Shown: one piece after another, positions 1-22,444 of the stretch
Numbering within the stretch: position 1 is the first letter of the stretch
How the letters are laid out: every line of letters starts with the position of its first letter
Origin: a virus
Virus record (IMG/VR): IMGVR_UViG_3300031753_000035
Coordinates: 1-27,129 of that record
Strand: one strand, 5' to 3'
Length of the DNA stretch: 27,129 nt
Made by a program: the position numbers and the translations under genes
The notes under the pieces: model-generated
What the model was told of the DNA's origin: nothing
Seen by the model: the letters and a program-made list of their open reading frames with translations, nothing else
The model's database searches: none

Positions 1-2004
1 GTTTCCCATGTTGGCGGCCAGCGCGTACCCGGCATTGAAACCGGCCATCTGGCTTTCATTGCCGTTCTGCAACGCATCGTAGATCAGTTGCGCGAGGACG
101 ATATAGCCAGCGGGGCTGGGATGCAGTGCATCAAGCGGCGCATAGGGAAGCGTCCATAAATTATCCGGGTCGCCGCCAGAGTAGTACACACCCATGGGAT
201 CTGGCGAGACGTACAAGCCGTTGTACGGCGCGCTGGTGACCAGCGTCTTGAGCGCAGCATTCAACAGGTCACGCTGTTGCAACATCGCATTGGTCGCACT
301 GATGTACGACCGGAACGGCAGCACGCCGATGACCACCGGATAAATACCGGCCGCAAGCCCGGCATTGAGCATGGTGGTGAAATTGGCGAGGATCGTCACA
401 TTGGTAACGCCCCCGAGGATGTCGTTCACGCCGCCCATGATGATGGCAAACTGCGGATTTTTTGCCACCACGTCCGCCGCAAACCTGGCCGCCATCTGCG
501 TCGTGGTCTGGCCGCCGATCCCTACATTCTGATTGGCGTAGCTCAGAAATGTCCCGAGAACATATGGAAATGACTGATAAAGCTGAGTCGTGACCTGGAA
601 GTTATCGGCAAACGAGGTTTGCGAGAGCAACCCGCTGGTGAGCGAATCGCCAATGGCGACGAAAACCGGTGCCGCCATGAACGTTTCGACAATGATCGCA
701 TTGCCGCTCAATGTCGTCTGCGCCGCCCAGTTGTATTGCGAGGTCGCGGGCGTGGCGCTGAGCACCGAATAGACAACCGTCGCAACATTGTCGTTGGTCG
801 TGTTCGCCGCGACCGAGGCAAACAAATTCTGCGCCGCTGCGCCGCCAGGAGCAAATTCCAGACGCAGGCCCACATAATCGCCCTTGAGAACGCCGGCGAT
901 CGGCGTCGCCAAGGTAATGGCGTTGGTCCCGGCTGTAATGCTCGCCGAGATATTCGAGCTGCCGACAAGATCGTATGCGGTGCCCTGCGCACGCCATATT
1001 TTCACGTAGGCGGCGGCGATCGAAGTCGTCGCCGGAAGATAGAATTTGACGGCATTGACCGTTCCGTCTTGCCTGATCCGGTAGATTTGGCCGACCGTAA
1101 CGAAATCTACGCTGGTTTGTCCGGCGCTCGGACCGAAATTGGCGGCTCCGGTCGCGGTCGTCGGATAGGGTCCGACCTGCACCGAACCGCCCTTTGATGC
1201 CTGCCGGTCGAGCCGCGGGAACGGCAGTTTCCATGCCCCCGTGGTGCCGTTTCCGATCGGCACGTACCCGAGTAAAGGCGTCCCGGTGATGGTGACGCCG
1301 CAGCTTGAGCTGCCGCTATCGAGGAGGTTGCCGGCGGCATCGGCGGTGATGCAGTGACCGAGAGTGAGCGAACCGCTGACAGTGGCAAAATCCGTGGTGT
1401 TGCCGCTCCTGGTTCCGGCGACCGGCGCGCCGCTGCCGCCGCCCAGCACCGGAGCATTGGCTGGGATCGCGCCTGATGATCCGATGCTGAGGGCGGTCGG
1501 ATAATAGGCAATCCCGCCCGGCGTGCCGGCGGCGATCGGGACAAATGGATAGGACGTGCCGTTGATGTTGAATTGCAGCGGCAGCGGCGAAGCCGTGCCG
1601 CCGGCACCGGCCGCGATCAGGCCGCCTCCTTGCGCATTGGCGGAAAAGCACAGGAAATGATAGCCGGTCGCGTTGGTGGTCGGCGCGTCGTAATCGCAGA
1701 AATTGGTGCCAAACGGCCCCGAGCCTTGCCCGGCATAGGGCGGAGTTCCGGTGCCGCGGGCAACGAGCAGCAGCTCCGAGAGGCCGACGCCGATTCCCCC
1801 ACCTCCCGCTGGGCCGGAATCCTGCACGATCGGCTGCGAGGTGCCCTGTCCGACATACATTGGCACGTGGCCGGGCGTCCACGGACCGCCCTGCAACACC
1901 GCGCCTTGCGGCCATGCCGCCGAAATTGGTAGAAACGCCGCCGCCGCAACGATAAGCGCGAGGCGCCGTGCGCAGTGGCAAACCGGCATCGGATAGCTCT
2001 TCAT
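1..2004 (-). CDS. Tailspike/tail fibre with signal peptide and C-terminal SGNH (GDSL) hydrolase domain, C-terminus beyond window
   Basis: One open frame of 668 codons starts at ATG 2004 (AAGGTGA upstream) and is still open at base 1. The first 35 or so residues form a Sec-type signal: basic start, then LALIVAAAAFLPISAAWPQ. The middle is Gly/Ala/Thr-rich, as in phage fibre shafts. The C-terminal part carries the SGNH blocks in order: GDSLTSG with Ser454 as nucleophile, Gly in NVGIGG (about 495-498), GGVND with Asn527, and DALH with Asp625 and His628. All catalytic residues are present. SGNH enzymes remove acyl or acetyl groups from esters; on tailspikes they typically deacetylate surface polysaccharide. 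The substrate here is inference. It is the last visible gene of the tail cluster, 15 bases after the preceding stop. The odd point is an export signal on a presumed virion protein. Confidence 0.85.
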   Translation of the reverse strand, partial: MKSYPMPVCHCARRLALIVAAAAFLPISAAWPQGAVLQGGPWTPGHVPMYVGQGTSQPIVQDSGPAGGGGIGVGLSELLLVARGTGTPPYAGQGSGPFGTNFCDYDAPTTNATGYHFLCFSANAQGGGLIAAGAGGTASPLPLQFNINGTSYPFVPIAAGTPGGIAYYPTALSIGSSGAIPANAPVLGGGSGAPVAGTRSGNTTDFATVSGSLTLGHCITADAAGNLLDSGSSSCGVTITGTPLLGYVPIGNGTTGAWKLPFPRLDRQASKGGSVQVGPYPTTATGAANFGPSAGQTSVDFVTVGQIYRIRQDGTVNAVKFYLPATTSIAAAYVKIWRAQGTAYDLVGSSNISASITAGTNAITLATPIAGVLKGDYVGLRLEFAPGGAAAQNLFASVAANTTNDNVATVVYSVLSATPATSQYNWAAQTTLSGNAIIVETFMAAPVFVAIGDSLTSGLLSQTSFADNFQVTTQLYQSFPYVLGTFLSYANQNVGIGGQTTTQMAARFAADVVAKNPQFAIIMGGVNDILGGVTNVTILANFTTMLNAGLAAGIYPVVIGVLPFRSYISATNAMLQQRDLLNAALKTLVTSAPYNGLYVSPDPMGVYYSGGDPDNLWTLPYAPLDALHPSPAGYIVLAQLIYDALQNGNESQMAGFNAGYALAANMGN

Positions 2005-2019
2005 TGGAAGCGGTCACCT

Positions 2020-2283
2020 TTATTTGGGCGCCTCGCTTGGTCCAGCAGCAGGCGCTGGCGGAGGCGCCGGGATGGTTTTCTGCTGCGCCGTCCGTTCGAG
2101 CTGCTCCCAGAAGATTACGGCCTGTAACGCGTCATCAAGGCGCATCTGTCCGAGCATCCGACGCATATCCTCGTAGGCCTTCTGATCGATGGTAATCGGG
2201 GCAAAGGGCACAGGGAACGCGCTTTGCTGCGCGCCGGCCGGGGAAGCGAGACATGCCAATGCGATGATCAGTGTTCGTTTCAT
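2020..2283 (-). CDS. Small exported protein of unknown function
   Basis: An 87-residue protein. The first 18-19 residues are a clear signal peptide (MKRTLIIALACLASPAGAQ, cleavage likely after AGA). The mature part is short, with a helical middle (DQKAYEDMRRMLGQMRLDDALQAVIFWEQLE) and a Pro/Ala-rich tail. The start ATG at 2283 overlaps the stop of the upstream gene (ATGA), so the two are probably translationally coupled. I do not recognise the family. Its place between two fibre-like exported proteins suggests a role in the tail or at the cell surface, which is inference only. Confidence 0.7.
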   Translation of the reverse strand: MKRTLIIALACLASPAGAQQSAFPVPFAPITIDQKAYEDMRRMLGQMRLDDALQAVIFWEQLERTAQQKTIPAPPPAPAAGPSEAPK

Positions 2284-2525
2284 ACGTGTTTCTCCGGACG
2301 GATACGCCAGGCGATGACGATGCATCGCCAGCCTAGCCGCAGCATTTCCTTGGCGCTCATCCGGAATTGGATGTAACCTTCGGGATTCAAGTCCGACACC
2401 TTAAGCATTCCGCCGCCATAACTGATTTTCGGGCCGGTACAATGCCAGAAAATTGTAGCATCCTCCGGCCGTGTAATGCTGTGGTCAGCGAAGGCGGTTT
2501 TTAGGTTTTCTTTCCGTTGCGTCAT
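2280..2525 (-). CDS. Unknown small phage protein
   Basis: An 81-residue protein starting at ATG 2525, chosen over an upstream in-frame ATG because AAGGAGAAGAGG precedes it at proper distance. It contains a compact domain with WHCTGPKISYGGGMLKVSD and a repeat of aromatic and basic residues near the end (LGWRCIVIAWRIRPEKHV). It has no signal peptide, unlike its neighbours on both sides, and three cysteines or histidines that could be structural. No family is recognised. It overlaps the downstream exported protein gene by four bases. Confidence 0.6.
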   Translation of the reverse strand: MTQRKENLKTAFADHSITRPEDATIFWHCTGPKISYGGGMLKVSDLNPEGYIQFRMSAKEMLRLGWRCIVIAWRIRPEKHV

Positions 2526-2535
2526 CCTCTTCTCC

Positions 2536-4320
2536 TTATCCGGCGTTTTGCGACATGCACACATAGTTGATGATATCGCCACTGGTGGAGGTCTGAGTCA
2601 ACGTGATGGCGGAGGCACTAACGACAAAGCTCTGCGACAGCAGCGGCGTCCCTTGCCACGTCACGGTGCAAAACGGCGTGTTGGCATATGCCTTGTTGAA
2701 AGTAATCACGCACCCAGTAGCTGCCGTGCCGGCGATGTCGGTGCCTAGGATGGTAGGACTTCCGGTCCCACACGAGGTCAGCGCGGGCGCTGTCGTGGCC
2801 CCGACCCGGAGGTGGGACTTGCTGTCAATCAGGAGTGCGTCCACTAACGCGTTGACCGCCGTGCCGGTTGTCCCCGCCGGCGCAGTCGCGATGTGAAAGA
2901 TGCCCCCGGCCCCGGTTCCCTTGCCAGGGGAGACGCCGAGCGTAAAATCCTTGCCAGCCTGATCGGCGGTCCCGCCAGCCAAAGTGCCTTGCGTCCGCAG
3001 GGTCTGGGCTACAATGCTGGCGTTCGTATCAACGTCGGTTTGACCGAGTTGAAGGGTGCCGGCAACATTGATGTTCTGCAAATAATTTACATTCGTGCCT
3101 CCCATTTTGACGCCGATGCTGGCCGCCGTAAAATTGACGGCGCCATAGGCGGTGAAAACGCCGCCGGCGCCAAACGGCGACGGGCTATACCACGAATTGG
3201 CAATGGTCACATTATAGTTGAGGCGGTCCAATCCCAGGATACTGACCTGGAGCTCCCCCGCCGCTGTTGCAACCAACCCGCAATTCGCGCCGCAATTCGA
3301 TAAGGCAAGCGCCGGCGCCGACAATGTTCCGGCGTTGCTGAGCGTCAGCGCCGGTGACGTGACCGTGCCGGTAAACGTCGGCGAGGCGGACAGCACCGCG
3401 CTCCCAGTCCCGCTGACCGCCGTGATCGCCGTGCCGTTGATCAGGAAGGAATTGCCTGCCCCGGCCGTGTCGTAGGTCTTGTTCGTGAGCGTGTCGGTCG
3501 TGGCCTTCCCGACCAGCGTGTCAGTCGCCGCCGGAAGGCTCAATGTGACCGTGCCGAGCGCGCCGGTCACGGGCTGCAACGTCAGGAGCCCGGACGTGGC
3601 GTTGCCAAGCGTCACCGACCCGAGCGTGCCTGACGCGCCGAGCGTCGGCGTCGCGGTGAAGGCCGGTCCAGCGCCCGCGAGCACCTGTCCCGCCACGCCC
3701 GTGATCGATATCGCGCCTGCGACCGACACGGCAACTGGACCCGTGCCCGTGATCGCGCCGCCGTTCGTGGTGGTCGCACAAGTGGCGCACGCAAGCGTTC
3801 TGTCGGCAGTGAGGTCGCCACCCCCGGTGATGGGTGCGGTCGTGTTTAGCAACCGCGTATTCAGGGCGCCGTTAGTTATCCCGTAGCCCGCAAGCGTCGT
3901 CGGCGTGCCGGAAAGATTTGAGAATGAAGGCTGCGCGTAGGTGCCGTCGCCGCGGAAGAACGTATTAGTGGTATTGGGCCACGCCGGCAACGCGCCAGAG
4001 AGCGCCGTGGTCGCTAGGCCGATCAGCGCGGTAAGTTGGACGTTGGTGTACTCGCCGATCACGCCGGCGTTGTCGTACAGCACACGCGTCGTGGTGCCGC
4101 CGGTTATCGTGGTGGTGTCCACAGTGATGGTTGTCATGCCGCAGGTATTGACGCCCACCGTGCCGGCATTGATGTAGAGGCATTGGCCGTTTGATCCGCC
4201 ATTGACGACGGTCGATCCCACGGTCAGCGCGGTGGCCGGCCCTTGAATCTGCCCATGCGCGGAACTGCACGCAGCGGCTGCAAGCGCAGACGCGAGAAGG
4301 GCCGCCCGAAGAGGACGCAT
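2536..4320 (-). CDS. Tail fibre-like protein with signal peptide
   Basis: A 594-residue Gly/Thr/Ala/Ser-rich protein. The N-terminus (MRPLRAALLASALAAAACSSAHGQ) is a signal peptide; the Cys at residue 18 is preceded by Ala-Ala-Ala, an imperfect lipobox. Short motifs common in phage fibres recur: SNGQCLYINAGTVGVNTC near the start, NTFFRGDGTYAQPSFSNLSGTPTTLAGYGI, KATTDTLTNKTYDTAG and SASPTFTGTVTSPALTLSNAG. The last 100 residues, from about APALTSCGTGSPTILGTD, look like a globular receptor-binding tip with paired cysteines. I take ATG 4320, six bases after the previous stop; an in-frame ATG at 4348 would put nine more residues before the signal. The long open frame continues upstream to 4437, but that part overlaps the previous gene. 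Likely role: adsorption fibre; receptor unknown. Confidence 0.75.
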   Translation of the reverse strand: MRPLRAALLASALAAAACSSAHGQIQGPATALTVGSTVVNGGSNGQCLYINAGTVGVNTCGMTTITVDTTTITGGTTTRVLYDNAGVIGEYTNVQLTALIGLATTALSGALPAWPNTTNTFFRGDGTYAQPSFSNLSGTPTTLAGYGITNGALNTRLLNTTAPITGGGDLTADRTLACATCATTTNGGAITGTGPVAVSVAGAISITGVAGQVLAGAGPAFTATPTLGASGTLGSVTLGNATSGLLTLQPVTGALGTVTLSLPAATDTLVGKATTDTLTNKTYDTAGAGNSFLINGTAITAVSGTGSAVLSASPTFTGTVTSPALTLSNAGTLSAPALALSNCGANCGLVATAAGELQVSILGLDRLNYNVTIANSWYSPSPFGAGGVFTAYGAVNFTAASIGVKMGGTNVNYLQNINVAGTLQLGQTDVDTNASIVAQTLRTQGTLAGGTADQAGKDFTLGVSPGKGTGAGGIFHIATAPAGTTGTAVNALVDALLIDSKSHLRVGATTAPALTSCGTGSPTILGTDIAGTAATGCVITFNKAYANTPFCTVTWQGTPLLSQSFVVSASAITLTQTSTSGDIINYVCMSQNAG

Positions 4321-4325
4321 CCGGA

Positions 4326-4532
4326 TCAGGCCGCGTCGGGCGTCCATGGCTTGCCGTCCGCGTGCACAACCTTGGCGTTGTCGTCGGCGTGTTTCTCGGC
4401 GGCCGCGCGCTGCTCTTGCAACATCAGCCTGGCGCATTCGTATCCCGGAGTTAGAAGCTTAACCAACTCCTCGAACTGGTCGTCGGCAAGCCGGACGGTT
4501 GCCGCCGGATGATCATTCTGCCTGCTGGGCAT
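4326..4532 (-). CDS. Unknown small protein
   Basis: A 68-residue soluble, charged protein starting at ATG 4532 behind a strong AGGAGGAGC ribosome site. The sequence is mostly helical (LADDQFEELVKLLTPGYECARLMLQEQRAAAEKHADD), resembling small coiled or helical accessory proteins in the fibre region of phages. The reading frame continues 46 codons further upstream but overlaps the previous gene there and has no ribosome site, so the short form is preferred. It could be a fibre chaperone or a head accessory; there is no direct evidence for either. Confidence 0.6.
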   Translation of the reverse strand: MPSRQNDHPAATVRLADDQFEELVKLLTPGYECARLMLQEQRAAAEKHADDNAKVVHADGKPWTPDAA

Positions 4533-4542
4533 GGTGCTCCTC

Positions 4543-4896
4543 CTATCTGGTTGCGTAGATCGATTTGGGGTGTGATTTCTCGTCGGCTTCTTCGGCTGTG
4601 GATTCGGTGGTTTCGTCCTCGACGGCCATCTTCTCGATCTGTAATTCAACGCGGCATTCTTCCTCGCCACCCTCCGTCTTGTTGATCGAGACAGAGGTTA
4701 CGCAGGCGAAGGCGCGGAGGTCGATCATGTCTCCGACTTCGCAGTCGGCGCTCAGGCCGAGCTTCGGCAGTTCCTTATGGGTGAGACAGATTTTGAGGCC
4801 GAATGGATAGCGCGGCCTTTCCGGCATGGGTATCGGACAACAGCAGTCGAGTTGATCCTCATCGTCCATCTCCATATCCACGAGCTTCGACCACAT
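4543..4896 (-). CDS. Acidic minor capsid/staple-like protein
   Basis: A 117-residue acidic protein. Residues 25-90 hold a conserved-looking core: RPRYPFGLKICLTHKELPKLGL, CEVGDMIDLRAFACVTSVS and ECRVELQIEKMAVE. Proteins with this YPFGL...GDMIDLRAFA...VELQI pattern are found in many phage head modules and are commonly described as capsid stabilising or minor capsid proteins; I assign that from memory of the pattern. The acidic C-terminal tail (DETTESTAEEADEK) is likely disordered. The start at ATG 4896 has AGGAGTCC upstream. It follows the highly charged histidine-rich protein by 11 bases. Confidence 0.6.
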   Translation of the reverse strand: MWSKLVDMEMDDEDQLDCCCPIPMPERPRYPFGLKICLTHKELPKLGLSADCEVGDMIDLRAFACVTSVSINKTEGGEEECRVELQIEKMAVEDETTESTAEEADEKSHPKSIYATR

Positions 4897-4907
4897 GCGG
4901 AGGACTC

Positions 4908-5354
4908 CTATGCCGCTGCCGCCATCTGGCCCGGAGGCGCAGCGTCGGGTGCGACATCGCCGTTTGGCGCTGCGCCTGCGCCGGCCGCCTCGCCGCCAGC
5001 GCCGCCAGCAGCACCGGCCGCTGCCATTTCGGCCATCTGCTTTTCCGCGAGCGCCTGGTGTGCATCCTGGTGACGCGCGTGCATCTTGTCGTGCTCGGCG
5101 CGGTGATTGCCGTGCAGGTCGCGGCGCTCGACGCGGTGCGCCTGGTGCAGCGTTTCGCGCTCGGCCTGATGGCGCTCGTGGATGGTCTTGTGGGCCTCAG
5201 CGCCGTGCTTGCCGGATTCCTCTTGCTTCTTGTCCTTGTGCTCTTTTTTGGCTGGGGCTTTCGTCTCCTTGCCCCCCTCTTCTTCTTTCTTGACCACGTC
5301 CTCCTTTTTGGCGGGAGGCTCGGCCATCTTCTTTTTCGATTCGACGGAATACAT
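4908..5354 (-). CDS. Charged, His-rich hendecad-repeat protein
   Basis: A 148-residue low-complexity protein. It begins with MYSVESKKKM, matching a peptide at the ends of three neighbouring proteins. Residues 15-57 are Lys/Glu-rich. Residues 58-112 are five consecutive 11-residue units starting with I/L/M and mostly reading x-H-x-x-H-x-x-E (IHERHQAERET, LHQAHRVERRD, LHGNHRAEHDK, MHARHQDAHQA, LAEKQMAEMAA), a hendecad pattern that suggests a right-handed coiled coil. The last 36 residues are Ala/Gly/Pro-rich. The start codon lies one base after the preceding stop, with GGAGG inside that gene. No enzymatic motif is present. It may be a head-internal or fibre-associated rod; the histidine ladder could bind metal. 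Function is unknown. Confidence 0.65.
   Translation of the reverse strand: MYSVESKKKMAEPPAKKEDVVKKEEEGGKETKAPAKKEHKDKKQEESGKHGAEAHKTIHERHQAERETLHQAHRVERRDLHGNHRAEHDKMHARHQDAHQALAEKQMAEMAAAGAAGGAGGEAAGAGAAPNGDVAPDAAPPGQMAAAA
5019..5183 (-). repeat. Five tandem 33-bp coding repeats (hendecads)
   Basis: This part of the charged protein gene codes for five back-to-back 11-residue units, residues 58-112. The unit is conserved at the protein level (hydrophobic at position 1, His at 2 and 5 in the first four units), while the DNA has diverged, so it is selected structure and not a recent duplication. Confidence 0.7.
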
Positions 5355-5355
5355 T

Positions 5356-5658
5356 TCAGGCCTCCATCTTGGAGCGGGATTTTTCGTAAATTTTCGAGGA
5401 TTTTGAGGATTTTTTGGTGCTTTTGCCGTGCATTCCCATCAGCGTCTTGGCAAGCCGAGCCTCACGGCCAAGCTCTCCAGGCGCGCCAGCTTTCTCCGCA
5501 GCGTATTCGCGCGTTGACTTCCCGGCCGCTTCCGCCTTGGCCTTGAAGACGCCCTTGCGGCTGTCGGGCACGGCCTTTTTGATCCAGGCTTTCTTCTTTG
5601 GGGCATCGGCCATCCCGGTAGTCCTCGACAGCATGTCAACGATGGTCGGATGCGCCAT
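5356..5658 (-). CDS. Small basic phage protein with shared C-terminal peptide
   Basis: A 100-residue basic protein. The middle (AWIKKAVPDSRKGVFKAKAEAAGKSTREYAAEKAG...LGREARLAKTLMGM) resembles small Lys-rich proteins found near head genes of many phages. The C-terminus, KIYEKSRSKMEA, matches the C-termini of the next gene upstream and of the scaffold. Start ATG overlaps the upstream stop as TGATG, indicating coupled translation. The basic charge suggests DNA contact or capsid interior location, which is inference. Confidence 0.65.
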   Translation of the reverse strand: MAHPTIVDMLSRTTGMADAPKKKAWIKKAVPDSRKGVFKAKAEAAGKSTREYAAEKAGAPGELGREARLAKTLMGMHGKSTKKSSKSSKIYEKSRSKMEA

Positions 5659-5834
5659 CAGGTCTTTTCCATCCGTGCCCGCGACTTTTCGTACATCTTC
5701 GAGGGCTTCTTGCGCTCTGGCAGTTTCCCGCCGGGATCGGCATCGGCAAACTCCTTGGCGGCGCGGCCTTCTCTGGTGTTCTTGTTTTTGTTACTCCACG
5801 CCCAGCGCCGCTGGGCCTCAGATACCGGAGGCAT
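5658..5834 (-). CDS. Small basic phage protein (SEAQRRWAW type)
   Basis: A 58-residue basic protein starting at ATG 5834 inside a TGATG overlap with the fibre gene stop; GGAG lies six bases before. The pattern SEAQRRWAW...GRAAKEFADADPGGKLPE is a recurrent small phage protein type in head regions. The C-terminus PSKMYEKSRARMEKT shares the terminal peptide with the two following genes and the scaffold. An in-frame ATG at 5852 exists but lacks the overlap logic. Function is unknown. Confidence 0.65.
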   Translation of the reverse strand: MPPVSEAQRRWAWSNKNKNTREGRAAKEFADADPGGKLPERKKPSKMYEKSRARMEKT

Positions 5835-7126
5835 CAGAGCTCCGCGGTCCATAGCATCTGGCCGCCGCCGGCTGCCGTCGATGTAAGGAAGCAGGCGTCC
5901 TTGGCCGTCATGCCGGTGGTGGTGAAGTTGATCGAGGCGCCGTTGACCGAATTGGCGCCGAGCGTCGCGGAAAACGGCGTCGCCAGGACAGTCGCAGTCT
6001 GCGAATCCGACACCATGGTCCAGGTCGTGGCGGTGATGGCGTTGGTGTAGGTCGGTGCCGCCCGCATCACCACGGGGAACGGGATGTACATGGTGCAGGT
6101 GGTCGTGGTGCCCTGCGCCGAGCCGAGCGGCGTTTGTACCGCACCCGCGGAATTGCGTTCATTGATCGAGTAGGTGTAGCGCTGTTGGAGTGCGGTCTCG
6201 ATCTCTTGTGGCCGGTGATAGAACGCCTTGGCGCGCGAGTCGTTGGGACTGAGCACCGCCCCGGCGGCGCCCGCGGCCGCTGTCAGTGCCGGGTTCACAA
6301 CCAGCTGCGCGCCGGTGAATTCAAACCAGTCACCCGCGACCCCGGTGCCGACCGGGGTGTAGCAGATGATGACCGCGAGTTCGGTCGCGGTCGCCGGGAT
6401 CGCAGCCACAACCGTATAGCGCGCCCAACCGGTGGTGATCGGCACGAGCAGGTTGGAGGCTGCATTGGTTTGCCCGGCCCAGGTCGATGACCCGCCGCCG
6501 CCGCCGTTGAACTGGAATGCCAGCTTTGACGTGCCTTCATCCACGCCAGTGCCATAGACGATCGAGACCTGCAGGTTGCTCGACGCCGCGGAGAAATTCG
6601 CTCCCGCCTTGGCGTGAAAATCGAATTCGGCCGTCGTGCCCTGGAAGCGGTAGGAATTGACGGACTCGATTTCCTGGGCGATGCAGGACTGCACCACGCC
6701 GGCGCCCGAGCCCTTGTTCACGCGCAACGACGCGCTGTAGCGCGCCGTGATATCGCCGGCGCCCGTCTGCTGCGTTACGGTAAGCGTCGTTGCGGTGCCC
6801 GACCACGCAATCCAACGATCGGCTGTGTAGAGCGCCGTGGTGGTGATCGAGCCCACCGAGGTGCCGCGCTGGAACAGGTTGGTGCCGAAGTCGCCGCCGA
6901 CGATGGCGTTCTCGGCGTTGCCGCCGGTGAGCGTGTTGCCGTAGGTGCCGAGCTGGGCGGCCGTCGCATACTGGTTGTTGGCCTGCGGCGAGCCGCCGAC
7001 GATATCGAGGAACAGGTCGCCGGCGCCGATCTGGGTGACCTGCGGGACGGTAATGACCTGTGCGATCGCCGCAACGGCAAAGCCGAGAGCAACCAGCGAT
7101 CCGGCAATCCACCGAAGTTTCTTCAT
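5834..7126 (-). CDS. Exported tail fibre/receptor-binding protein with carbohydrate-binding-like region
   Basis: A 430-residue protein. MKKLRWIAGSLVALGFAVAAIAQ is a textbook signal peptide (cleavage after AIA). Residues 34-60 hold the D-L-F-x-x-I-x-G-G-x-x-Q...AAQLGTYG element common near the start of tail proteins. From about residue 72, NAIVGGDFGTNLFQRGTSVG...YTADRWIAW matches the opening of the jelly-roll domain often seen in phage receptor-binding proteins. The C-terminal half (from about 290) has the YHRPQEIETALQQRYTYS segment typical of the same class. Start ATG 7126 has AAGGAG ten bases upstream. The probable role is surface-sugar binding at the tail or at the cell surface; why it should be exported is unexplained. 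Confidence 0.75.
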   Translation of the reverse strand: MKKLRWIAGSLVALGFAVAAIAQVITVPQVTQIGAGDLFLDIVGGSPQANNQYATAAQLGTYGNTLTGGNAENAIVGGDFGTNLFQRGTSVGSITTTALYTADRWIAWSGTATTLTVTQQTGAGDITARYSASLRVNKGSGAGVVQSCIAQEIESVNSYRFQGTTAEFDFHAKAGANFSAASSNLQVSIVYGTGVDEGTSKLAFQFNGGGGGSSTWAGQTNAASNLLVPITTGWARYTVVAAIPATATELAVIICYTPVGTGVAGDWFEFTGAQLVVNPALTAAAGAAGAVLSPNDSRAKAFYHRPQEIETALQQRYTYSINERNSAGAVQTPLGSAQGTTTTCTMYIPFPVVMRAAPTYTNAITATTWTMVSDSQTATVLATPFSATLGANSVNGASINFTTTGMTAKDACFLTSTAAGGGQMLWTAEL

Positions 7127-7154
7127 GACGTGATCTCCTTGGCCGATGGCCGGT

Positions 7155-7670
7155 TCAATTGACGCGATACCAGGTGTTAGCCGACGCCGAATACATGAAG
7201 CGCGACGATGTCGGGGTTGCGGTCGTGCATGACGTTGGGTTGGTTCCGACGATGGCCACGCCGGTCGGCAGCGTTGCCGTGATCGACAGGGTGGTGGTGT
7301 TGCCGCCGGGGCATCCGATCACCGCTTCCTGGCCGTCTTCCGGCGCGGTCGAAAGCACGATGTTCCAGGTCGTGATCGCGCCGGTGGCGAGCACGTTTTG
7401 CACGTTGGTGTCAATCAGGGTCGTATTGACGGTCGTTCCCGCCGCGACCAGGAGGTAGCCCTTGGAATTGCGGATCTGGTTGATGGTGACGGTTTCGACC
7501 TGCGGCCCGAGCCCGAGGACGTTGACCTGCTCCTTGCCGGTCGGGTTGGGGATGGAGAGTTGCGGCACGCCGGCAGGCTGCGAATAGGCGGCAATGGCGA
7601 TTGCGAGCGGAATTGCGACCGCACTCGCACCGGCGAGCTTGATGAGCGACGTGCGCCGCCACGATTTCAT
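7155..7670 (-). CDS. Exported tail-cluster protein with GPQ anchor motif
   Basis: A 171-residue protein with a twin-arginine-containing, hydrophobic leader (MKSWRRTSLIKLAGASAVAIPLAIAIAAYSQ). Residues 43-71 (PTGKEQVNVLGLGPQVETVTINQIRNSKGY) align with the N-terminus of the next gene upstream, and the end (SRFMYSASANTWYRVN) aligns with its C-terminus, so the two are partial paralogues. Between them lies a beta-rich Thr/Ala segment. Start ATG 7670 has AAAGGAACC upstream; a longer frame to 7748 runs into the preceding gene. It is probably a tail or decoration protein. The leader could be read as Sec or Tat (RRTSLIK), a call I cannot settle. Confidence 0.65.
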   Translation of the reverse strand: MKSWRRTSLIKLAGASAVAIPLAIAIAAYSQPAGVPQLSIPNPTGKEQVNVLGLGPQVETVTINQIRNSKGYLLVAAGTTVNTTLIDTNVQNVLATGAITTWNIVLSTAPEDGQEAVIGCPGGNTTTLSITATLPTGVAIVGTNPTSCTTATPTSSRFMYSASANTWYRVN

Positions 7671-7698: not shown

Positions 7699-8733
7699 TT
7701 ACTGGATGCGGTCCCACGTGGCGTCAGGCGCCGAGTAGAGATAGCCAACGCCGCTGTCGGCGGGTAGTTTGAGAAATGGCGGCTTGTCGTGGGTGGATTC
7801 CGCTTTTTCCTTTTTCGGCAGCGTCGGCGACCAGTGGAGGCTCTGGTTTCTGTGTGCGAGCACGGTCAATTCGCCGATTTCCAGGGTCGAATAGATGAAT
7901 GCGAGATGACCATCGACCGGATGCTCAGGCAGGAGCACGGTGAGCGCCGGCAGCGGCTCGGGAGGTGAAAGCAGCAGGCGCGACACACCATCAGGGAATA
8001 CGACCCGTTCGGTCGGGATGCTGAACTTCAGGTCAACGCGATCGGGGACGGCCGCAGGCGGAGGCACAGGAACAGCAGGAGGCACAGGAACGGGAGCGCC
8101 GACAGCGGGCGCGACAGGCTTTGCAGCATCGCGCGCGTAGGTTCCATCGGGATTGCGCACCGGGAGCGCAAGCACGACTTCGCCTGGCGAGCCCGGACGT
8201 GTGTTGGTCGCCGCGACGGCGGGAGTGCGAACCTCTCGCACCGTCGCGCCTTCGGGGATCGATCCGCCGGATACGCGTGCGCCGGCAAGGCCGTCGGTCG
8301 CGGCCAGGCCGGCGATGGCGCTTTCGCGGGCGATCAGCGTGAATACGACCGGCTGCCGCACGCCAGTCGCCGGAGCAAACGGCTCGACGTTGGACAGGGA
8401 AACAACGCCGTCTACCGAGGGCGTTGCGGGAACGACGATCGACGCGACCTTCACTCCCTCGGGCAGGCCTTCGGTCGCCACCGAGGCGCCAACCAAGCCA
8501 TCGGTCGCGGCAAGGCCTTCGATCCGGTTGCCGTTCAGAAAGCCCGTCGTCTTGATGGTGACCGTGCTGCCGGCGAGCGTGACGATGCCGGATGCCGTCA
8601 CTTCGCGCGGCGGAAGCGGCGTCTGCTTGGAGTAGCCGGCCGCATCGCGGAATTGCGCAACCGACATGGTCTCGGCCTGTGGCCCGACGCCGTGCACCGT
8701 GACCTTCTGCGTTCCGCTCGGAGTCGTGATCAT
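7699..8733 (-). CDS. Tail/decoration protein with GLAATDGL repeats
   Basis: A 344-residue protein without signal peptide. Residues 7-34 (GTQKVTVHGVGPQAETMSVAQFRDAAGY) are the same anchor element as in the following gene. Two copies of a repeat follow: IEGLAATDGLVGASV...LPEGVKV and IAGLAATDGLAGARV...IPEGATV, a beta-type module common in phage structural proteins, where the pattern is G-L-x-x-G-x-x-V-x-x-x-x-I-P-x-G-T-x-V. A Pro/Val linker (about residues 212-230) leads to a C-terminal domain ending YLYSAPDATWDRIQ. Start at ATG 8733 with AGAGGAAAG. The role is structural by context. Confidence 0.65.
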   Translation of the reverse strand: MITTPSGTQKVTVHGVGPQAETMSVAQFRDAAGYSKQTPLPPREVTASGIVTLAGSTVTIKTTGFLNGNRIEGLAATDGLVGASVATEGLPEGVKVASIVVPATPSVDGVVSLSNVEPFAPATGVRQPVVFTLIARESAIAGLAATDGLAGARVSGGSIPEGATVREVRTPAVAATNTRPGSPGEVVLALPVRNPDGTYARDAAKPVAPAVGAPVPVPPAVPVPPPAAVPDRVDLKFSIPTERVVFPDGVSRLLLSPPEPLPALTVLLPEHPVDGHLAFIYSTLEIGELTVLAHRNQSLHWSPTLPKKEKAESTHDKPPFLKLPADSGVGYLYSAPDATWDRIQ

Positions 8734-8749: not shown

Positions 8750-9646
8750 TTAGCCCGAAGTGAGCGGCCCGATGGCGAGCGATTCCGCCGCGCCGCCGGT
8801 CTGCGAAAAACGATAATTGATGGTGCCGGACGTATATTCGATGCAATTGAGCCGGTAGAGTACGTTTTTCTCCGGCTCGCCGAAGGTCAGCGAGACCGAC
8901 GAGAGATCGAGATATTGCGCCAGCGCGCCGGCGCCCCCGATGTTGCACACGAGCCAAGTCGCGCCGCCGTCGAAGCTGCGTTCCACCTGCACGGTGGCGT
9001 CGTATTTGATCGCCGCCCCGGTAAAACTGGCCGCGGCATCGGCGCCCGTGACCGTGACGACGTTGCCGGTCGGCGCGAACTGGAACGGCACCGGCCCTGT
9101 CATGACGGGCGCTGCGGTTGCCGGGGCGGAGAGCTGCACAATCCCCGGAACGCCGGGATTGATGTTAGTCGGCGGGACTGCGACCTGGATGATGGCGGTG
9201 ACCGTCGTATTGGCCGGCAGCGTCACCTGCTCATTGTTCGACGGCACGGTGACCGTCGCGCCGAGCAATCCGGCGGTCGAGGCAAGTCCGCCGATCTGCG
9301 CCGCCGCGGTGTTGATCGTGCCGTAGAGGGTGATCGGCGGCAGAGCAAGCGTGACCGTAGTCCCGACCAGGTTGCCGATGGTCGCGCCGCGCGGCACGTT
9401 GGCGGAGTTGATCGCATTGCCGATCGCGAGCCCGGTTGCGCTCGCCACCGTCGGGGCAAGCGACCCGGCGGCTGTGGTCAAGGCGGTGTTGATCGATGCC
9501 CAGATGGCGAGGTTCATCGGGCCGCGGAAAGCAAACGGTGCGGTCGGACCGACGGCGGACAGCGTGCCGCCCAGATAGGCGTTGCACTGGTCGCCGGCGT
9601 TGGGGAGGCCGGCAGCTGCTACGCCGAGAGGTGCCGGAATTCCCAT
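8750..9646 (-). CDS. Structural protein with tail-type beta repeats
   Basis: A 298-residue Ala/Thr/Gly-rich protein. Two degenerate copies of the G-L-x-x-G repeat are visible: SATGLAIGNAINSANVPRGATIGNLVGTTVTLA and LASTAGLLGATVTVPS. The C-terminal third is more ordinary, with VQVERSFDGGATWLVCNIGG, a pattern seen in phage tail or fibre subunits, and YRLNCIEYTSGTINYRFSQTG at the end. Start at ATG 9646 with TAAGG seven bases upstream; its stop lies 17 bases before the next start. It is likely a virion surface or tail component. Confidence 0.6.
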   Translation of the reverse strand: MGIPAPLGVAAAGLPNAGDQCNAYLGGTLSAVGPTAPFAFRGPMNLAIWASINTALTTAAGSLAPTVASATGLAIGNAINSANVPRGATIGNLVGTTVTLALPPITLYGTINTAAAQIGGLASTAGLLGATVTVPSNNEQVTLPANTTVTAIIQVAVPPTNINPGVPGIVQLSAPATAAPVMTGPVPFQFAPTGNVVTVTGADAAASFTGAAIKYDATVQVERSFDGGATWLVCNIGGAGALAQYLDLSSVSLTFGEPEKNVLYRLNCIEYTSGTINYRFSQTGGAAESLAIGPLTSG

Positions 9647-11042: not shown

Positions 11043-11077
11043 GCGTTCGCCCGATCAGTTGCGTTCGCCGATCAGTT
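11043..11077 (-). repeat. Tandem duplication over the capsid gene stop
   Basis: Two adjacent copies, GCGTTCGCCCGATCAGTT (11043-11060) and GCGTTCGCCGATCAGTT (11061-11077), differ by one base. The second copy contains the stop codon of the major capsid gene (TCA at 11072-11074), so the first copy repeats a stop just downstream. It is probably a replication slippage product. Confidence 0.7.
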
Positions 11078-12115
11078 GACGGTCGCTTCGGTATTGAGGA
11101 TCTGGTCGATGAGCTTGATAGGCTCGCCGCGGAAATTGTCGGTGACGATGCCGGCGTAGTCTTCGAGTCGCAGCAGAACGTTGCGCTGGCGCATCGCTTG
11201 CACGTACATCCAGTGCAGCATGGTACGGTTGCAGTACCAGACGTTGCGGGTGGCGTAGTTATCGTCGGGTGCGTCGGTCTTATCGACGCCGGAAACCTTC
11301 TTGCTGGTCTTCGGGAACAGCAGCGTCATTTCCGGCATCGTCGCAAAAATATCGATCGCGTTCGGTCCGGCCAAGCCTGCGGCCGTGGTATCGATATTTG
11401 CGAGCCGCGCGGCGCGCCGCCAATCCATCGGCACGAGGCCGACTTCTTGCTCGAAATAGGTGGTGAACGCGAGGTAGGGATTGCCGAGATTATCGTATGC
11501 CGGCACCGTATCGCTGCGGTCCTCGACTTTGAGGCCGGCTTGTCCGCCGCGCGGATAGGTCAGGAAGAACGAGCGCGGCGACCACCCGATGTACCAGAGC
11601 GAGGTGTTCGAATTGCCGGTGCCGCCGCCTGGCAGCACGTTGGCGGCGTTCTGCGCATTATTGGTGTTGATGGTGTTGTAGAACGGCGCGAGGCCCATGA
11701 ATTCGGGGGGCGTCAGGGTCGTGTTGCCGTAGATGAGGGTTTGTGCGATAACCTGCGAAAACCCCTCCAGAAATGCGAAATCTTCCGAGCGCCGGAATGC
11801 CTCGCCCTGTCCGGAATGGCGCAGCAGCGCCGCATCGACCTGGCTCCAATCGGCCAGCATGCCGAGACCGACGCGGGCCTTAGCGGTGGTGGATTTGCCG
11901 TAGGGCGTACCCTGGTTATAGGCGCGCCACGCCGGCGAGACAATCGAGGTCCGGTACGAGAACTCGTGCCCGGTGCGCTCGTTCGCCTCCATGAACGGTG
12001 CGTCGTCGGTCCAGTCGTTGCACTGGGACAGCATCTCGGCGACTTCCATGATTTCGCCGCTGGTGCTGGTGCGCGAGGCCACGTCGGTGATCGTTGGCCA
12101 TTGTCCGGTCGCCAT
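11072..12115 (-). CDS. Major capsid protein
   Basis: A 347-residue protein starting at ATG 12115 with AAGGAG nine bases upstream. Features fit the coat proteins of BPP-1-like podoviruses: WPTITDVASR near the start, IMEVAEMLSQCNDWTDDAPFMEAN, GHEFSYRTSIVSPAWRAYNQGTPYGKSTT, FLEGFSQVIAQTLIYGN, PPEFMGLAPFYN, GGTGNSNTSLWYIGWSPRSFFLTYPRG, then EVGLVPMDWRRAARLANID and a C-terminal domain with NRTMLHWMYVQAM. The coat forms the icosahedral shell with an HK97-type fold expected for the class. It lies between scaffold and cement, the usual order. Confidence 0.9.
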   Translation of the reverse strand: MATGQWPTITDVASRTSTSGEIMEVAEMLSQCNDWTDDAPFMEANERTGHEFSYRTSIVSPAWRAYNQGTPYGKSTTAKARVGLGMLADWSQVDAALLRHSGQGEAFRRSEDFAFLEGFSQVIAQTLIYGNTTLTPPEFMGLAPFYNTINTNNAQNAANVLPGGGTGNSNTSLWYIGWSPRSFFLTYPRGGQAGLKVEDRSDTVPAYDNLGNPYLAFTTYFEQEVGLVPMDWRRAARLANIDTTAAGLAGPNAIDIFATMPEMTLLFPKTSKKVSGVDKTDAPDDNYATRNVWYCNRTMLHWMYVQAMRQRNVLLRLEDYAGIVTDNFRGEPIKLIDQILNTEATVN

Positions 12116-18480: not shown

Positions 18481-18993
18481 ATGACCTCGCTCATCGAAAT
18501 CTATCGCCGCTTCCCCACACGGGAAGCGGCTACCGCGCATCTCGAAAAGGTCCGCTGGCCATATGGCCCTGAGTGCGTCTACTGCGGCGCGACCACGACC
18601 GCGCATCATCGCGAGACGAGACGCGACCGCTGGCAATGCTGGTCCTGCAAAAAATCGTTCTCGGTGACGGTCGGAACGATTTTTCACAACAGCCACATTG
18701 ATCTGCAAAAATGGTTCCTTTTGATCGCGCTCATGATGAACGCGAAAAAAGGCCTGTCGTCGCTGCAAGCGTCCCGCGATATCGAGGTACAGCAACCGAC
18801 GACCTGGAAAATGATGCACCGCGTCCGCGCCGCGATGGTTGATGACGGCAAGCTGTTGTCGGGCCTTGTCGAGATGGACGAAGCTTACCTTGGCGGTAAG
18901 CCGCGCAAGCGGAACCGGCGCGATGACGATACGCCTTCGCCGCGCGGTCGCGCCACGTCCAAAAGACGCCGATTGTCGGCGCGTTCCTCATAA
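18481..18993 (+). pseudogene. IS1595-family (ISXO2-like) transposase, truncated and frameshifted
   Basis: A 170-residue frame that starts directly after the preceding TAA. Residues 32-56 are a zinc ribbon (CVYC...CWSC), followed by KKSFSVTVGTIFHNSHIDLQKWF and GLSSLQASRDIEVQQPTTWKMMHRVRAAM, the helix-turn-helix part, and EMDEAYLGGK with the first catalytic Asp at 133. These are signatures of IS1595 transposases, which normally run to about 300 residues. After RGRATSK the frame turns to arginine-rich nonsense; reading one base differently at the AAAA run (18961-18964) restores KTPIVGAF, the expected continuation, but this too ends within about ten residues. The second and third catalytic residues are missing, so the protein cannot be an active transposase. 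Confidence 0.85.
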
Positions 18994-21422: not shown

Positions 21423-22061
21423 TCAGATTTTTCGGATGTCGGCAATCGTCAGATCGACAGTGGTCGCGCGTCCGAACAGCTCGACAGCTAAGCGCAATCT
21501 GGTGGTCCCGTCAATACGCTCAATCGGACAATCCGGCGGATGCTCGACGATCCCGATCCTGTCAAGAAGCGCCCCGTCGAGGATTCGCACGCGATCGCCG
21601 ATGCGGAAAATCAGCTCGATCGGCGTGCCGCCGGGGATCGCCCCGCCGCCCTCGCGCTCGCGGGCCTGGAGCCCCTCGATCCAAGCGCCGGAGATGCGCG
21701 CCGGCGCGGTACCGACGCAAATCAGGCCGAGAATCCCCGGATAGTCCATCAGCTTTCTCACATCGGCCCGCGCCGACACAAACACCAGGCCCGGCAGGAA
21801 TGGGGCCACCTGCGGGCGCATCACGTTGACGCCGCAATCACGCTGCGAGCGCGACAGCTCGCGCAGCGGCACGCGCCGCAGCTCGCGCACCATGGGGTAA
21901 TACGTCGTGAATCCGGCTGCGTTGACACCGGCGAGCCAGGCCTGCATTCGAGATTGCCGACCGGCGTATTCCGGGAGCCCTCGCTTTCGCGTCCCGACCG
22001 CGCTCGAGCGCTCGTGCGATAACGCCATTACCCGCACGATCAGCCAATCGTCGGGCCTCAC
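21423..22061 (-). CDS. NusG-like transcription elongation/antitermination protein
   Basis: A 212-residue protein from GTG 22061, overlapping the upstream stop (GTGA). The NGN domain spans about residues 6-130: DWLIVRVM...AWLAGVNAAGFTTYYPMVREL, VAPFLPGLVFVSARADVRKLMDYPGILGLICVGTAPARIS and WIEGLQARE. The KOW domain follows: FRIGDRVRILDGALLDRIGIVE, then LRLAVELFGRATTVDLTIADI to the end. This two-domain order is that of NusG and its specialised paralogues RfaH and LoaP, which ride on RNA polymerase and suppress pausing or termination. An open frame continues upstream but overlaps the preceding gene. In a phage, placed before integrase and virion genes, it probably serves as a dedicated antiterminator; that role is inference. 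Confidence 0.85.
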   Translation of the reverse strand: MRPDDWLIVRVMALSHERSSAVGTRKRGLPEYAGRQSRMQAWLAGVNAAGFTTYYPMVRELRRVPLRELSRSQRDCGVNVMRPQVAPFLPGLVFVSARADVRKLMDYPGILGLICVGTAPARISGAWIEGLQAREREGGGAIPGGTPIELIFRIGDRVRILDGALLDRIGIVEHPPDCPIERIDGTTRLRLAVELFGRATTVDLTIADIRKI

Positions 22062-22444
22062 GCGGTGCTCGCTTCCGGCATGTCCGCCACGACCGCGCCC
22101 GGCGTGAACACAACATCGGCATTGAGCGTGATCGTCCACGCGTCGCGGGATCCCGGCGCATACGAGCAGTCCGCCGGTGTGATTACGGTCGCCGCGATGC
22201 ATAGGGTGGGCAAGTCCCGCCCGATCCGGCGCAGAAACCGGGCGGTCTGGTCGAACAGCCGCTCCCGCGACGGCGCGGTGACGACGACGAGGCCGCTTGG
22301 CCCGATCCGGACGAGGCAGCCATGCAGGCTGGGATGCTGCACGCCCACCATCGCCTCCCGCTCGACCTCGGTCAAGAGCCGGAAACCACGAACCGCCACG
22401 AGATCGCCCCGGACTAAAGGCTTGGCTTGCGACTGATACCCCAT
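22058..22444 (-). CDS. Unknown early protein
   Basis: A 128-residue protein, MGYQSQAKPLVRGDLVAVRGFRLLTEVEREAMVGVQ..., beta-rich with VRIGPSGLVVVTAPSRERLFDQTARFLRRIG and TLCIAATVITPADCSYAPGSRDAWTITLNADVVFTPGAVV. No family is recognised. The start is uncertain: ATG 22444 has no clear ribosome site and an in-frame GTG 22549 would add 35 residues. It overlaps the NusG-like start by four bases, so the two are probably translated together. The 143 bases upstream (22445-22587) hold nothing I can name. Confidence 0.55.
   Translation of the reverse strand: MGYQSQAKPLVRGDLVAVRGFRLLTEVEREAMVGVQHPSLHGCLVRIGPSGLVVVTAPSRERLFDQTARFLRRIGRDLPTLCIAATVITPADCSYAPGSRDAWTITLNADVVFTPGAVVADMPEASTA

Follow-up and report, generated by a model that had tools for sequence, protein, structure and literature searches.

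Candidate secretory tail fibres with conserved signal peptides and even cysteine counts in an epsilon15-like podophage

Five late genes of an epsilon15-like podophage, g1, g2, g4, g10 and g11 (Table 1), encode proteins with predicted signal peptides. Their sequences suggest that they are probably the receptor-binding tail fibres or tailspikes of this phage group and their small partners, made as Sec precursors, oxidised in the periplasm and joined to the rest of the virion at lysis. Export and oxidation, as judged from sequence, are the well-supported steps of this scheme. The genes lie in the window, i.e. the whole 27,129-base virus contig analysed here, which is part of such a phage.

Genomic setting and fibre identity

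The major capsid protein encoded in the window was 28-37% identical to its counterparts in the epsilon15/BPP-1 group, nearly over its full length in most records. Close relatives of the window phage include a prophage of Rhizobium sp. BK313, in which tail and internal virion proteins were also homologous to those of the group, and one contig of a metagenome-assembled genome assigned to Rhizobiales. Head genes (terminase, portal, scaffold, capsid and small head genes) occupy the minus strand and precede the signal-bearing region; the tail adaptor, hub and internal virion genes lie past the contig end and were placed from relatives. The signal-bearing genes sit between head and tail-adaptor genes, within a tightly packed late structural operon. 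Genes with and without signals probably share one operon, since the intergenic gaps given by their coordinates are short or negative. Two further window genes were noted by eye. The open reading frame at 18481-18993 (plus strand), opposite to the late genes, starts with a zinc ribbon, resembles an IS1595-type transposase and is apparently truncated, and 21423-22100 (minus strand) encodes a NusG/RfaH-type antiterminator-like protein with a possible counterpart in the BK313 prophage (G001 41578-42201).

Table 1. Features of the window and the basis of each assignment.
Feature	Position	Strand	Mature Cys	Basis or detail
g1, predicted exported fibre/spike, C-terminal GDSL esterase	1..2004	-	4 (truncated)	signal ~residues 1-30 (1915-2004)
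g1 GDSL-like esterase domain, residues 450-634	103..657	-		PF13472, E 3.4e-19
Mature g1-family conserved N-terminal domain, residues 34-150	1555..1905	-		invariant Cys103, Cys119
g2, small predicted exported protein	2020..2283	-	0	signal residues 1-18 (2230-2283)
g3, signal-less; 4-base overlap with g2	2280..2525	-		scorer
g4, predicted exported repeat-rich fibre-like protein	2536..4320	-	10	signal ~residues 1-23 (4252-4320)
g5-g9, five small signal-less proteins	4326..5852	-		several or all in the same place in relatives
g10, predicted exported tail-fibre homologue, CBM4/CenC-like domain	5834..7126	-	4	signal residues 1-22 (7061-7126)
g11, predicted exported 171-aa protein	7155..7670	-	exactly 2	signal ~residues 1-30 (7581-7670)
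g12, signal-less g11-superfamily member	7699..8733	-	0	internal contrast
g13, signal-less protein, place conserved in relatives	8750..9646	-		relatives' gene order
Major capsid protein, epsilon15-like	11072..12115	-		match to epsilon15/BPP-1 group

Receptor-binding folds or domains were found in g10 and in the g1 family. A predicted model of g10 (mean pLDDT 65) matched predicted viral proteins, many of them named tail fibres (best E 2.5e-23), and among PDB structures it matched carbohydrate-binding modules (CBM4, best E 7.7e-6). For g1, the AlphaFold model (mean pLDDT 51) was of low quality except at residues 80-155 and was left out of the fold search; the contig end cuts the g1 frame, so that the C-terminus is missing. 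Across the g1 family the N-terminal domain is constant and the remainder variable, carrying GDSL, pectate-lyase-like or beta-helix parts, an Mtd second domain or an endosialidase extension, a layout typical of receptor-binding proteins. Several members matched PHROG tail-fibre or spike families. The member with the Mtd second domain (L087:1872-4130) also bears a signal, and a search for repeats in L085-L087 revealed no diversity-generating retroelement beside it.

No significant family match was obtained for g2, g4 or g11, and a scan with g12 returned no relatives. Short signal-bearing proteins like g2 also adjoin g1-family genes in other contigs (L075, L091/L023 and L019); our guess is that g2 and those in L075, L023 and L019 are fibre partners or chaperones, possibly periplasmic. 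Among the signal-less genes, those of the g7 family encode highly charged proteins, and all 39 members lack cysteine.

The earlier note had offered several roles for exported phage proteins: surface decoys, superinfection blockers, adhesins made by the lysogen, or fibres added after export. The last fits best because of the fibre and spike folds and domains, the place in the late operon, and the fact that these genes are the sole fibre candidates in the best-annotated relative; the other roles found no positive evidence. The broader alternative is that the proteins are exported but stay outside the virion; whether kept in the periplasm, displayed on the surface or released, they would act as decoys, adhesins, surface enzymes or blockers of superinfection. 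This would agree with the well-supported prediction of export, and GDSL and pectate-lyase domains would also suit surface enzymes. We nevertheless regard it as unlikely, given the fibre and spike folds and the position of the genes inside a tightly packed late structural operon. It would also leave the BK313 prophage without a recognised fibre: its tail and internal virion proteins were recognised, and no other, signal-less fibre candidate was recognised in it.

Signal peptides and cysteine counts

Signal peptides were called with a scorer written for this analysis, which weighs the charge of the n-region, the hydrophobicity of the h-region and the residues at -3/-1. Twelve E. coli controls scored 9-14 with the exception of PhoA, which was missed, so sensitivity is incomplete. 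The earlier note had assigned signal-like N-termini to five reading frames and none to 2280-2525, 4326-5834 or the sequence from 7699 onward, and the scorer agreed throughout. All five frames exist and combine a basic n-region, a hydrophobic core and small residues at -3/-1 (g1 12.1, g2 12.2, g4 9.1, g10 11.5 and g11 10.8), and the remaining window genes tested gave no call or at most 2.9. Residue-shuffled N-termini passed in 1-13% of cases and segments from mature parts in 0%.

An Ala-x-Ala-type cleavage site, followed by Gln in several of the proteins, had also been described, and this calls for some correction. For g4 two cuts are possible, AHG↓Q and the lipobox-like AAA↓C (AAAC at residues 15-18), and g1 is likely cut at SAA↓WPQ, with Gln at +3. 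Inspection by eye found no lipobox in g1, g2, g10 or g11. The n-region of g11 has a twin-Arg, making a Tat route possible for this protein, although the signals of its relatives resemble plain Sec ones. Ribosome-binding sites were fitting for g2, g10 and g11 and weak for g1; g4 has none and is probably translated by coupling to the gene before it.

Relatives of g1 were sought in virus contigs with the mature N-domain only (76 loci); with earlier loci added, 70 distinct untruncated open reading frames were scored. Sixty-two passed, with cleavage near the expected place. Inspected by eye, most of the eight failures also had a hydrophobic N-terminus, with AQ, SQ or GQ at its end, and fell short because the n-region was long, the ribosome site was weak or the score lay below the threshold. 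A search with the mature part of g10, pooled with other loci, gave 50 distinct proteins, 48 of them complete; 42 of the 48 passed, and most of the other six looked signal-bearing by eye. In the same phages, the capsid, portal, adaptor, hub, scaffold and small-gene families contained almost no scoring member (capsid, 1 of 21 open reading frames). The g11-family alignment was very divergent.

Signals were absent from the annotated fibres of six cultured relatives and from all 12 Hyphomicrobiales-genome proteins with g10-like stretches, many of which are weak matches. The g1 N-domain was present in one of 397 Hyphomicrobiales genomes, and this was the BK313 prophage itself, which suggests a family of phage rather than host proteins. 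When 50,697 phage records were searched with the g1 N-domain, g4, g10 and fibre-like proteins of four relatives, no match was obtained except for a 369-aa protein of L071, with two distant matches.

About equal numbers of odd and even cysteine counts are expected unless cysteines pair, and we therefore read an even excess in signal-bearing proteins as pairing. With one representative per 90%-identity cluster, cysteine-containing proteins with a signal were 83 even to 5 odd (8 more had no cysteine), versus 124 even to 174 odd among signal-less proteins of the same phages, a set that may include some spurious open reading frames. Clustering at 40% gave 20:2 with and 53:73 without a signal; the counts are inflated by shared descent, and the contrast between the classes is independent of an exact probability. 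The signal-less Hyphomicrobiales proteins with g10-like stretches, many of them weak matches, were 6 even to 6 odd.

The same pattern was seen within families. Even counts were found in 42 of 42 automatically called g10-family members, and in the g1 family Cys103 and Cys119 were each present in 63 of 63. In the g11 superfamily almost every short signal-bearing member has exactly two cysteines, one of which is differently placed in two subgroups, and three signal-less members (g12, a 140-aa protein of L049 and a 155-aa protein of L085) have none. The earlier reading of the five as a set of exported phage proteins is thus strongly supported at the level of sequence: relatives keep the signal, and its presence goes together with even cysteine counts. 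Separately, five neighbouring genes of a distant contig (L003:11628-20060) form a fibre-like cluster; all bear signals, and their products have 2, 20, 4, 0 and 24 cysteines.

The hydrophobic N-terminus might instead be an uncleaved virion or membrane anchor; fibre assembly would then be cytoplasmic in the usual way, and disulfides would form after release. Some n-regions are long and that of g11 starts with a twin-Arg, as this would allow. We hold it to be quite improbable, because small residues are conserved at -3/-1 and Gln at the usual +1 (Q33 is kept in 92% of the g1 family), because the segment diverges fast while its physical character is kept (25% identity over 1953 g1-family pairs, versus 55% for the mature domain), and because even cysteine counts are confined to signal-bearing proteins. 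Chance or a misplaced gene start in GC-rich, Ala-rich sequence, to which the purpose-written scorer and the weak (g1) or missing (g4) ribosome sites might point, is extremely improbable and was rejected, as 1 of 160 non-gene window open reading frames passed the scorer, the signals are conserved across dozens of phages, and signals are lacking from nearly every other virion family of these phages.

Proposed assembly route and known systems

Assembly of tailed phages is taken to be wholly cytoplasmic. In the route that we favour, with secretory fibres, the proteins would be translated from the late operon alongside other virion proteins, as the gene order supports. Their N-terminal signals would direct them to Sec, and signal peptidase would cut just before a usual Gln, a step that the sequences support. 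Paired cysteines would then form disulfides in the oxidising periplasm, as even counts and invariant pairs suggest; disulfides could form after release instead. Heads and tails would be built in the cytoplasm, and the fibres would dock on the tail once lysis mixes the compartments. We place docking at this point because fibre and tail have to come together at some stage, and lysis brings the contents of both compartments into contact. The chances seem evenly balanced that these phages represent a tailed lineage with a two-compartment virion, in which a cytoplasmic head and tail and periplasmic, disulfide-bonded receptor-binding fibres are joined only at lysis.

If true, secretory disulfide-bonded fibres would revise the wholly cytoplasmic picture, account for the way in which soil-bacterium phages come by oxidised fibres, and connect adsorption with the Sec and Dsb functions of the host. 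A signal with an even number of cysteines would also be a simple signature for finding receptor-binding proteins that are now annotated as hypothetical or mistaken for host secreted proteins. We found no account of exported tail fibres in the open-access literature, which does not prove that none exists.

The fibres and tailspikes of epsilon15-like phages (epsilon15 gp20, BPP-1 Mtd and Bbp9, PfDIW6 gp17) belong to the same virion type and likewise have receptor-binding and enzymatic domains. However, they are signal-less and their genes follow those for internal virion proteins, whereas the candidate fibres of the window have predicted signals and are encoded between head and tail-adaptor genes. 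Compared by fold, g10 resembles CenC/CBM4-type phage tail fibres (BcepNazgul, OP1h, BMB50 and others). Phage lysis proteins such as SAR or secretory endolysins and spanins are exported through the host Sec pathway. An endolysin carrying a signal is one example (PMC8878798). The window proteins would share this use of host Sec; those proteins act in lysis, whereas the window's are fibre-like and encoded in a structural operon. The resemblance extends to filamentous phages, in that their coats are also virion proteins with signal peptides, whereas the phage of the window is a tailed dsDNA phage, and its remaining virion proteins are signal-less. Filamentous coat proteins are assembled in the inner membrane. 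One phage record, PQ492659.1 (L158; Limnohabitans phage DC33), is entered as Inoviridae yet has an epsilon15-like capsid and a 39-kb genome, and is likely mislabelled.
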